Of a stretch of 41,834 bases of DNA, positions 3,103-18,781 are shown piece by piece (positions within the stretch are counted from its first letter, which is position 1; each line of letters opens with the position of its first letter). The notes beneath the pieces are model-generated. The model made no database searches. It saw only the letters and a program-made list of their open reading frames with translations, and had not been told where the DNA came from. Origin of the DNA: Desulfovibrio sp. A2 (lineage in GTDB: Bacteria > Desulfobacterota > Desulfovibrionia > Desulfovibrionales > Desulfovibrionaceae); NCBI RefSeq assembly GCF_000226255.1, contig NZ_AGFG01000010.1, positions 1-41,834 of the forward strand, read 5' to 3'. The position numbers and the translations under genes were made by a program.

Positions 3103-3137
3103 AACGGGGAGTCCGCGAGGACTCCCCGTTGTTCTTT
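3103..3137 (+). terminator. Rho-independent terminator after M23 gene
   Basis: Perfect 12-bp stem AACGGGGAGTCC / GGACTCCCCGTT with a GCGA tetraloop at 3115-3118, followed by GTTCTTT. Confidence 0.92.
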
Positions 3138-15544: not shown

Positions 15545-16248
15545 TCAGATGAAGGATGCGGCCGAAGCGGCCAGCAAGGCCAGCGCGAAGGCCGCATAGG
15601 CGCGGCGCAGGCGCAGCGCCAGCATGCCGCCCATGGCCCCCACGAACCACACGTGCCCCCACGCAATGCCGGGTACGGCGGGAAGATGCCCGATATAGTT
15701 GGACATAAGCTCGATAGTTCCCACAAGCACAAGCAGCCACACGCAGAACAGGCCAAGGTTCAGGGCAAAAAGCTCTCCCAGCGACCGCACCATGATGCGC
15801 CACAGGGGCGAATCGCCCTTGCCGGGGTGTTCGGCCACCCTGCCCCAGTGCAGAAGGTCCGTGTACTGCTGGTTGCGCCAACGGCGGTGCAGGTATTCCA
15901 CGTGCGCGCCGGTAAGCGCGGCGGGCAGGGCCAGCAGCACGGGAATGGCCAGTTGCCCGGCCGATTCCAGGCCGAAATGCCCGGCCACGGCCAGGGTGAG
16001 CAGCAGCGTGATGATGGAGTTGGGCGGGATGTAGGTGCCCGCCGGAAACAGGTCGAGCCAGAGCAGCTCAAGGAAGATGGCGAGGTGCATGGAAAGCCCC
16101 CACTCGCCGGTCATAACGGCCCACAAGAAGCCGATGGCGAGCGGGCGTTCCAGAAACCCGAGGTTCAGCGAAAAGCGCAGCAGCGAAAAAACGGCAAAAA
16201 AAAAGCGATGGGCAGCGCCAGGGTGAGCACGGGCAGCATATCCGTCAT
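15545..16248 (-). CDS. PTS mannose-family EIIC, frame interrupted at a T9 slippery tract
   Basis: Membrane channel subunit of a mannose/sorbose-family phosphotransferase system. Translation from the ATG at 16248, which overlaps the EIIB stop as ATGA, gives MTDMLPVLTLALPIAFFLP... and stops at 16165 after 27 codons. The rest of the protein (16126 to 15545) lies one base out of frame, with no ATG, GTG or TTG of its own before 16126. One extra base in the run of nine T's on the coding strand (A's at 16196-16204) joins both parts into a normal hydrophobic EIIC of about 234 residues containing FPAGTYIPPNSIITLLL, the family's usual PP-N segment. The run reads GCU UUU UUU UUG, a perfect U_UUU_UUU site for -1 frameshifting. 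It could equally be phase variation, RNA polymerase slippage, decay or a sequencing error. No EIID follows. Confidence 0.75.
16196..16204 (-). other. Homopolymer slippery tract in EIIC
   Basis: Nine A's on the plus strand, T9 on the coding strand, followed four bases later by T6 (16186-16191). A single-base change in length, or -1 re-reading, restores the EIIC frame. Such runs are rare in this GC-rich window, where Phe is mostly TTC. Confidence 0.8.
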
Positions 16249-16709
16249 GACCACCCCTTTATCTGCACCGGTTCGTTGGGCACGCAGCGAAAATCCAGCG
16301 CCACGGAATGGCGGCTGAAAAAACGCAGGCAGGCTTCGTCGTCGTCAGAGACGGAAACATGCGCGCACAGCTGCTTCTTGCCGGGGGTATAGTGCAGGTT
16401 GCCGATGTTCAGGGTGTTCATGCCCACTCCGGCGTCGAAGGCGCGGCGGGCGTCGGCGCACGTGGCGAAGAGCACGAGCGTGTCGTGCCCCTCGTCGGTG
16501 CGCCCGGTACAGTACGTGGACAGCGCGTCCACCCGCACGAAGTGCACTTCCACCCGGCCGGGAATGGCCAGCGAGACGATCTGCTGTTGCAGGTCGTCGG
16601 CGGCAAGGGCGTCGTTGGCCACCAGCAGGCGCCGCGCCCCGGTGTAGGGCAGCCACGCCTCGATGATCTGGCCGTGCACCAGGCGGTTGTCGATGCGGAA
16701 CCAGAGCAT
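16245..16709 (-). CDS. PTS mannose-family EIIB
   Basis: Accepts phosphate from EIIA and passes it to the sugar at EIIC/EIID. The 154-residue protein has the standard start RIDNRLVHGQII with the phosphorylated His12, then LLVANDALAADD and a C-terminal end VPNEPVQIKGW typical of the family. It begins four bases after the EIIA stop and its own stop overlaps the EIIC ATG, so the three are almost surely co-translated. The ribosome site is weak, consistent with coupling to EIIA. The sugar cannot be inferred. Confidence 0.93.
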   Translation of the reverse strand: MLWFRIDNRLVHGQIIEAWLPYTGARRLLVANDALAADDLQQQIVSLAIPGRVEVHFVRVDALSTYCTGRTDEGHDTLVLFATCADARRAFDAGVGMNTLNIGNLHYTPGKKQLCAHVSVSDDDEACLRFFSRHSVALDFRCVPNEPVQIKGWS

Positions 16710-16713
16710 GGCC

Positions 16714-17172
16714 CTACCCGTTCTTGACCCGGCTGCGCAGCAGTTCGCCCGCCGCGACGATGCCCTTGGCCCCTGCGTCGCGCGCGTCGCGCGAGAGGGT
16801 AGCGAGATCGCCGTCGCGCCCGCCGAACACCTTGAGCAGCATGGGCAGGTTGACGCCGGTCAGCACTTCCACGTTGCCCTTGCCCAGCAGCGCAAGGCTG
16901 AGGTTGGTGGGCGTGCCGCCGAACATGTCGGTAAGGATCATGACCCCGCGCCCGGTGTCCAGGCGCTTTACCGCCTCGTTCAGGCGCTTCACCGTTTCGT
17001 CCACCTCTTGCGAGACGTCCACGCTGATGGACGCGCAGTCCTGCAGGGGGCCAAGGATGAATTCCGCGGCGCGCAGCAGCGCCGCGCCGTAGTCGGCGTG
17101 GGTAACCAGAATCACGCCGATGCGCGGTTCCGTCTGTGGCTGTGCGGCCGTGGACTGTGCGGTGGTGGACAT
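16714..17172 (-). CDS. PTS mannose-family EIIA
   Basis: First phosphocarrier of the mannose-family system, receiving phosphate from HPr. It has 152 residues: a Thr/Gln-rich leader (1-16), then IGVILVTHADYGAALL, where His25 is the expected phosphorylation site, and the family motif LTDMFGGTPTNLSLALL in the middle. It lies 92 bases after rapZ on the same strand with no terminator between them. EI and HPr are not encoded in this window. The ribosome site before the ATG at 17172 is poor, so a start a few codons further in cannot be excluded. Confidence 0.92.
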   Translation of the reverse strand: MSTTAQSTAAQPQTEPRIGVILVTHADYGAALLRAAEFILGPLQDCASISVDVSQEVDETVKRLNEAVKRLDTGRGVMILTDMFGGTPTNLSLALLGKGNVEVLTGVNLPMLLKVFGGRDGDLATLSRDARDAGAKGIVAAGELLRSRVKNG

Positions 17173-17264: not shown

Positions 17265-18239
17265 TCAGCCCAGTTCCATGTGGCGGTGCTCTATGGATAC
17301 GGCATAATCAGATTTTTTCAAGGCGCGAAGCAGGGCCTCGGCCACCGAGACCGAACGGTGCCGCCCGCCGGTGCAGCCGATAGCGATGGTCAGGCGGTAG
17401 CGCCCTTCCGCCTCGTATTGCGGCAGCAGGAAATGCAGAAAGTCTATGAGCCTGGCGAGAAACGCGTCGCCGTGGCCCGCTTCCAGCACGTATTTGACCA
17501 CCGGCTCGTCCAGGCCTGACAGCGGCTTCAGGTCCGGCACGAAATAGGGGTTGGGCAGAAAGCGCAGGTCGAACACCAGGTCCGCGTCGGCGGGCACGCC
17601 GTACTTGAAGCCGAAGGTGACGATATTGATGCGCAGCGAGCGGATGCGCCCCTGGATGGTGCTCCACTTCTTCTGGATGACCCTGCGCAGGTCGTGGATG
17701 GAATAGCTGGAGGTGTCCACCACCAGGTCGGCGGTTTCGCGCACCGGGGCAAGACGCAGCCGTTCCTGCTCCAGGGCCTGTTCCAGCCCCATGCCCTCGC
17801 TTTCCAGCGGGTGCGGGCGGCGGGTGGTGGCGTAGCGCCGGTTGAGCACGGCGGGATTGGCCTCTATGAAGACCACCGCCGGGCGCACGCCCATGCCCTG
17901 CAACCGCTCCAGGGTCTTTTCCAGGTTACGGACGAAATTGCTCTCGCGCAGGTCCATGCCCAGCACCAGACCCTGGTAATGGGCCAGGGCCTCGCGGTTC
18001 AGGATGGTGACCATCTGCGGGGCCAGAGTGGCGGGCAGACCGTCCACCGTGAAATAGCGCAGATCTTCCAGCACGTTGAGCACGGTGCTCTTGCCCGCGC
18101 CGGAAAGCCCGGTGACGATGATGACGGGAAAGTCGGCGGCGGCCACGGGGCTTCCCGCGTCCGACGCCGTGCCGGGGGCGGGTGCGGCGGACGCCGTGGA
18201 AGCATCGGGCGTGGCTGGGGGAGAAGCTTTGGTGGGCAT
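17265..18239 (-). CDS. rapZ: RapZ-type RNase adapter / nucleotide-binding protein
   Basis: In enterobacteria RapZ binds GlmZ RNA and presents it to RNase E, linking it to amino-sugar synthesis; in other bacteria the role is less clear. The 324-residue protein has a Walker A motif GLSGAGKST (44-52), [10 protein letters not shown] after it, the Walker B-like LVVDTSS segment, and the conserved C-terminal domain [21 protein letters not shown] with GCTGGRHRS at 288-296, the region tied to RNA binding. The first 36 residues are an Ala/Pro/Ser-rich extension not found in E. coli. The ATG at 18239 is chosen for the GAGGAG six bases upstream. Its place between ptsN and PTS genes matches the widespread rpoN-hpf-ptsN-rapZ order. 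Confidence 0.93.
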
Positions 18240-18331
18240 GGCGGACTCCTCGGGCGGGCCGGTGCCGGATGGCGTTTCGGCAGACGCGCCGCGCGGCGCG
18301 CCCGCCGATGATGTGCGCAAGGTGTTCCGCG

Positions 18332-18781
18332 TTACGTGGTGCGCATCAGCGCCGTGAAGGCCGCACCGTCCGGCGCGTCGAGCATGGCGCGGCGGAACTG
18401 CGGATCCTTCAGCAGGCGCGAGATATGGGCCAGGATGCGCAGGTGCATGCCCGCCACCTGTTCGGGGGCCAGCACCAGGAAAAAGAGGTGGCACGGCTTC
18501 ATGTCCAGGGCGTCGAAGTCGAGCCCGGGCACGCTGCGGCCCACGGCGACGACGATGTCGCTGATGGTGGCCAGCTTGCCGTGGGGAATGGCCACCCCGT
18601 CGCCGATGCCCGTGGTGCCCAGCCCCTCGCGGTCCTGCAGCACGCCCAGCGCAACGGCGGCATCCACTTCGGGATGCCGCCGCACCACGGCCTGCACGAG
18701 TTCCGCCAGCACCTCCTTCTTGGTGCCGGCGGAGAGCTCGGGCAGGATCAGTTCATCGTGAAGATAGTCCGAAAGCCGCAT
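18332..18781 (-). CDS. ptsN: PTS EIIA-Ntr family regulatory protein
   Basis: Phosphocarrier of the nitrogen-related PTS, which in other bacteria signals rather than transports. The 149-residue single domain contains the phosphorylation motif [11 protein letters not shown] with His67 and the family segment [10 protein letters not shown] just before it. It begins nine bases after the hpf stop and is followed by rapZ, the classic order. Its likely role is to respond to the phosphoryl state set by EI/HPr (not in this window) and adjust targets such as potassium transport or sigma-54-linked genes; targets in this organism are unknown. Confidence 0.94.

Follow-up and report, generated by a model that had tools for sequence, protein, structure and literature searches.

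A T9 tract conserved at a frame break in the EIIC genes of the Desulfovibrionales is a probable site of programmed transcriptional slippage

The gene for the EIIC membrane component of a mannose-type phosphotransferase system (PTS) in Desulfovibrio sp. A2 is broken into two overlapping frames at a run of nine T's, and exactly this T9, on homologous codons and in the same phase, recurs together with the -1 break at 176 of the 191 EIIC loci examined in the order Desulfovibrionales. Some kind of recoding almost certainly takes place at the run. From the sequence comparisons we propose, with a probability of roughly 0.7, that EIIC is expressed through programmed transcriptional slippage on the T9; given that most of the relatives examined share both run and break, a built-in slip in copying is probably what the cell depends on to make the protein. 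A chromosomal transporter gene has retained the site in 42 genera, where reading without recoding would give only a peptide of 27 codons, and the question of why a slip site is retained over the long term becomes testable in cultivable sulfate reducers.

The window, by which we mean the whole stretch of 41,834 nucleotides that was analysed (contig NZ_AGFG01000010.1), carries on its minus strand, by domain profiles, genes for a PtsN-like EIIA, RapZ, a mannose-type EIIA, EIIB and EIIC in that order (Table 1). The RapZ domains begin at residue 124 of the open frame, hence the true start of that protein lies further in. The EIIC ATG (16248-16246) overlaps the EIIB stop TGA (16247-16245), 14 codons lead from it to a GCT with the sequence continuing as GC-T9-GCCG-T6, and the first frame ends at TGA 16167-16165 after 27 codons. 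The shifted frame is open up to its own stop at 15547-15545, and the earliest ATG, GTG or TTG in it is a TTG at 16126. The original prediction had described this arrangement, namely the overlap of start and stop, the 14 codons, the T9, the end after 27 codons, and a remainder of EIIC that is intact in the -1 frame with no start before 16126, and all of it was reproduced on the minus strand. The in-frame reading of the tract that it gave, GCT TTT TTT TTG, also matches the sequence and contains a phased heptamer of the X_XXY_YYZ form. With regard to a chance occurrence of the run, the whole assembly (G000; 83 contigs, 4.15 Mb) has only 9 distinct A/T tracts of at least nine bases, in 12 overlapping rows.

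Table 1. Features of the PTS gene cluster and of the EIIC frame break in the window
Feature	Position	Strand	Basis
PtsN-like EIIA (PTS_EIIA_2)	18332..18781	-	Open reading frame and domain profile
RapZ, open frame	17265..18494	-	Open reading frame and domain profile
EIIA, mannose type	16714..17172	-	Open reading frame and domain profile
EIIB (PTSIIB_sorb), stop overlapping the EIIC start	16245..16709	-	Open reading frame and domain profile
First EIIC frame, 27 codons, predicted first half of transmembrane helix 1	16165..16248	-	Reading frame, model of a relative, codon constraint
T9 tract, putative slippage site (T on the sense strand)	16196..16204	-	Run on homologous codons at 176 of the 191 EIIC loci examined
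Shifted (-1) EIIC frame, predicted remainder of helix 1 and of EIIC	15545..16204	-	Reading frame, EII-Sor profile, codon constraint

Within the genus, the run and the same break are present in all eight genomes (G000 to G007), one of which, G007, is a single contig, and the flank after the run, GCCG-T6-CGCTGCTGCG, is identical in the eight. Nitratidesulfovibrio oxamicus, N. liaohensis and two MAGs carry the site too, although they add no independent cases, their records being those of G003, G006, G001 and G002. The codon at 16126 is TTG in 2 of the eight and CTG in 6, so that the TTG is no conserved start, and the T6 behind the run, identical in these eight genomes, is not conserved over the order. 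In favor of a sequencing error or a decaying gene, an account that the original prediction had kept in play, homopolymers are error-prone and the assembly of the window is in 83 contigs. We reject this account as having next to no probability, since the same T9 recurs at 176 loci from independent species, 29 single-contig genomes among them, and the third-position periodicity described below persists past the run.

A match to the gene was found in 235 genomes of the order, 197 in the family and, by hand count, 38 outside it, and 44 of these 235 lie outside the comparison at the site. EIIC starts were obtained at 187 loci in a first set and at 4 more later, giving the 191, which come from 190 genomes and from 192 listed loci; G021, whose match is without the N-terminal part, was excluded and belongs either to those 44 or to the 192 listed. 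In the first set, the loci with the break number 172 and span 42 genera and 6 families. Because the T9 class was picked by its run, the invariance of the run has to be judged on the short list of exceptions, 12 single-frame genes and 3 odd loci, and the list includes no broken gene in which the run is shorter or is interrupted. Among the odd loci, L081 has a T9 on a contig that ends too early for the upstream frame, in L195 the T9 is in a different codon phase and the -1 break is kept all the same, and L154, from a single-contig genome (G301), reads T10 at the site, with an apparent second break of the frame farther along EIIC. Among the single-frame genes, L156 and L185 have T10, L122 has T9 preceded by an A, and nine have neither (L031, L064, L066, L070, L086, L092, L108, L139 and L153), with T8 in the last three. 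The outcome that the original prediction had named as refuting it, orthologues without the run, occurs only among genes that are in a single frame.

The T10 of the single-frame genes L156 and L185 and the T8 of the single-frame L108, L139 and L153 are what might be expected of phase variation, in which a change of run length in the DNA would switch EIIC on or off. Compared between loci, however, the broken genes have no spread of length, being 176 with T9 in one phase plus L195 and L154, and we regard phase variation as very improbable. What had been offered together in the original prediction as frameshifting, polymerase slippage or phase variation hence comes apart: a frameshift or polymerase-slippage site stands on the 176 of 191 loci, and the phase-variable switch does not survive. 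On a FastTree tree of EIIB and the start of EIIC with 170 rows, which omits L081 and 16 rows without a recognised EIIB (3 of them single-frame), the 9 single-frame rows require 8 changes of state. We read the single-frame genes as probable repeated losses, with the direction taken from T9 as the common state in all families. Outside the order, 30 of the 77 genomes of the same phylum with a match were sampled, and none of the 30 loci has a T run longer than 6 near the EIIC N-terminus; by eye, the matched frame is continuous through the N-terminus in these 30, and at three of them (L218, L227 and L240) the match contains one stop.

Both EIIC frames carry the mark of translation. Over the 30 bases that precede the run, differences counted only within genera of at least 3 rows number 390 at third positions of the first frame against 270 and 159 at the other two, and in the 33 bases after the run it is the shifted frame whose third positions vary most, with 462 against 187 and 109, as they do again further downstream in EIIC (1630 against 614 and 286). 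Since the third-position variation switches frame at the run, this pattern of codon constraint indicates that both frames are translated and are joined there. The 14 codons before the run are also hydrophobic in the first frame, with a mean KD of 1.09 against -0.60 in the shifted frame (173 rows including L122), and the first frame has the greater value in 167 of the 173. A first-frame start codon lies 9 to 24 codons before the run in 172 of 172 rows, and 12 to 19 codons before it in 159, in a search window of 8 to 24 codons; at least 4 Shine-Dalgarno bases precede that start in 67% of the 172 rows.

A frameshift would be unneeded if the shifted frame had its own start, whether ahead of the run or through re-initiation after the first stop. 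An ATG, GTG or TTG of the shifted frame with no intervening stop does occur upstream of the run in 56 of 172 rows, 12 of them being ATG, and public gene calls use upstream shifted-frame or internal starts. The other 116 rows, however, have no such start. In the first frame the 14 codons leading to the run are hydrophobic and under constraint, the shifted frame is constrained right after the run and so ahead of most internal starts, and an independent start leaves the nine T's unexplained. We consider it highly unlikely.

Another question is whether the run is kept for its residues or for its nucleotides. A requirement of the protein for Phe-Phe-Phe is ruled out by the nine single-frame genes, which by eye have SLY, CLF, LFV, VFF, VFF, CLY, LFF, LFF and LFF at the site, the three with T10 or A plus T9 (L156, L185 and L122) retaining FFF. 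Because relatives without the run do not retain Phe-Phe-Phe, it is the nucleotides themselves that are conserved, and what is under selection at the EIIC site is an exact run length. Codon use elsewhere gives a measure of this. Phe codons downstream in EIIC are 577 TTT and 517 TTC, with a TTT share of 21-72% at the eight Phe columns having more than 60 rows, and Ala and Gly codons elsewhere have a final T in 10-17%, as against 138 of the 138 rows that have an Ala or Gly codon at the site. In the T9 class, which is defined by its run, the first and the ninth T of the nonamer are both fixed.

These fixed positions bear on programmed -1 ribosomal frameshifting, in which ribosomes on faithful mRNA would slip at U_UUU_UUU, perhaps together with U_UUU_UUG, to make full-length EIIC. 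The heptamer is correctly phased in the window, and in the T9 class by definition, and every broken gene of that class is shifted by -1. A shift confined to U_UUU_UUU would allow a C in place of the ninth T, given the 517 TTC codons elsewhere, and one confined to U_UUU_UUG would put no constraint on the first T, as Ala and Gly codons elsewhere are rarely T-ended, hence neither heptamer alone explains both fixed ends. Two overlapping heptamers used together would fix the nonamer too, and this counts against slippage. Stimulators of ribosomal shifting, which are common and not universal, are of neither kind here: over 172 rows, folding without pseudoknots finds no structure behind the run, where the mean z is -0.15 and -0.01, and an upstream Shine-Dalgarno stimulator of at least 4 bases is present in just 5. 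We therefore rate ribosomal frameshifting as unlikely, though with a weight that makes it the leading rival to slippage. The "textbook" site of the original prediction is indeed a phased heptamer, and as the operative signal it ranks below slippage of the polymerase, given that the nonamer is fixed over its full length.

We infer, then, that the slipping partner is the polymerase and not the ribosome, and that the tract acts as a throttle. In some of the transcripts RNA polymerase would realign on the template T9 and either insert one U or alter the length in another way with the same result for the frame, and in the slipped mRNAs the N-terminal half of transmembrane helix 1 would be fused to the remainder of EIIC. 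From mRNAs copied faithfully only the 27-codon peptide would come, and the tract would be a fixed throttle that lowers EIIC relative to the EIIA and EIIB of the same cluster. In favor of slippage, the T9 of L195 is in a different phase and the gene is still -1 broken; against it, 12 of the 191 relatives are single-frame and live without the slip. Two marks of slippage genes are both found here: a run of roughly nine A or T where the frames join, at 176 of 191 loci, and split frames conserved in non-identical homologues, over 42 genera and 6 families. Transcriptional slippage is described on runs of nine A or T (PMC5009743), and in many genomes selection against A/T runs becomes visible at a length of nine (PMC1088944). 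A hairpin of the kind reported for a Roseiflexus IS (PMC5009743) was looked for directly ahead of the run over 172 rows and not found (mean z 0.39). A rather doubtful extension is that the slip rate is tuned by transcription speed or nucleotide supply, with most of the order making EIIC only from mis-transcribed mRNA. If that were true, the EIIC level would report energy state and couple it to sugar uptake or to PTS signalling, a possible link for which we cite the presence of PtsN and RapZ in the cluster of EIIC.

Comparison with known systems finds likenesses and differences in each. In the mxiE gene of Shigella flexneri (PMC1088944), too, one added nucleotide at a run of U's connects two overlapping frames and gives the longer product, but mxiE is a regulator on a virulence plasmid, whereas EIIC is a chromosomal membrane transporter gene in 42 genera. 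In dnaX of Thermus thermophilus (PMC1088944), likewise a chromosomal gene with slippage on a nine-base homopolymer, the A9 is late and the slip makes the shorter product, whereas in EIIC the T9 comes early in the gene and it is the long product that would require the slip. The genes of the 2005 screen, IS elements and mapW of Staphylococcus aureus (PMC1088944), share conserved split frames at a nine-base run; they are six IS cases and one single-species gene, all with A runs, and EIIC differs in being order-wide, non-mobile and on T9. With the -1 ribosomal frameshifting heptamers (PMC4066793) EIIC shares the phased U_UUU_UUU, and differs in that no stimulators were found and a longer run is fixed. 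The open literature searched has no description of an EIIC slip site; supplements were outside the scope of that search, and the GeneTack table may list the cluster. The words "Desulfovibrio" and "phosphotransferase" are absent from the main text of PMC3711429 and from the searched part of PMC5009743, and "Desulfovibrio" is absent from PMC1088944.

The identity of the split gene depends on profiles and on a structure model. The shifted piece in the window scores 24 bits against EII-Sor, under the cut-off of 26.3, the single-frame relative P0025 scores 26.8 bits, above that cut-off, and the assembly contains one EII-Sor match. A profile of relatives matches ManY at E = 0.004; a PDB sequence search with one relative alone gave no match. 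The AlphaFold model of P0025 has a mean pLDDT of 89.0, and in it the residues homologous to the run, 16-18, fall about halfway along the first helix (5-28); the unshifted product is accordingly predicted to contain only half of helix 1. A structure search with that model ranks man-PTS entries first, at the level of the entry with no chain assigned. Compared with ManY, the mannose-type EIIC (PDB ID: 6k1h, 7dyr), the sequence here is divergent, scoring below the EII-Sor cut-off, the EIIC gene is split inside helix 1, and EIID is encoded elsewhere. While EIIA and EIIB adjoin EIIC, EIID is on contig 22 of the assembly (L211), apart from them, and it was detected in 28 of the 30 genomes searched. 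The genes behind EIID on that contig are presumably HPr and EI, as read by eye from motifs. The PTS genes of D. vulgaris are reportedly the subject of a 2006 paper.

The site would also account for false or missing EIIC N-termini in protein databases. The public calls for P0003, P0005, P0006, P0010 and P0029 have false N-termini in the shifted frame, such as MGSSPRFFFAF, or begin at an internal ATG. Second T9 runs occur about 1.7 kb downstream of the EIIC run at L024, near oriented position 3129 and behind a terminator-like hairpin, and at L048, near 3191. Another T9 in the assembly that contains the window (L206; contig C76, 34679-34687) is 9 codons short of the end of a sense frame that is open for at least 499 codons, and the antisense frames there are open too.
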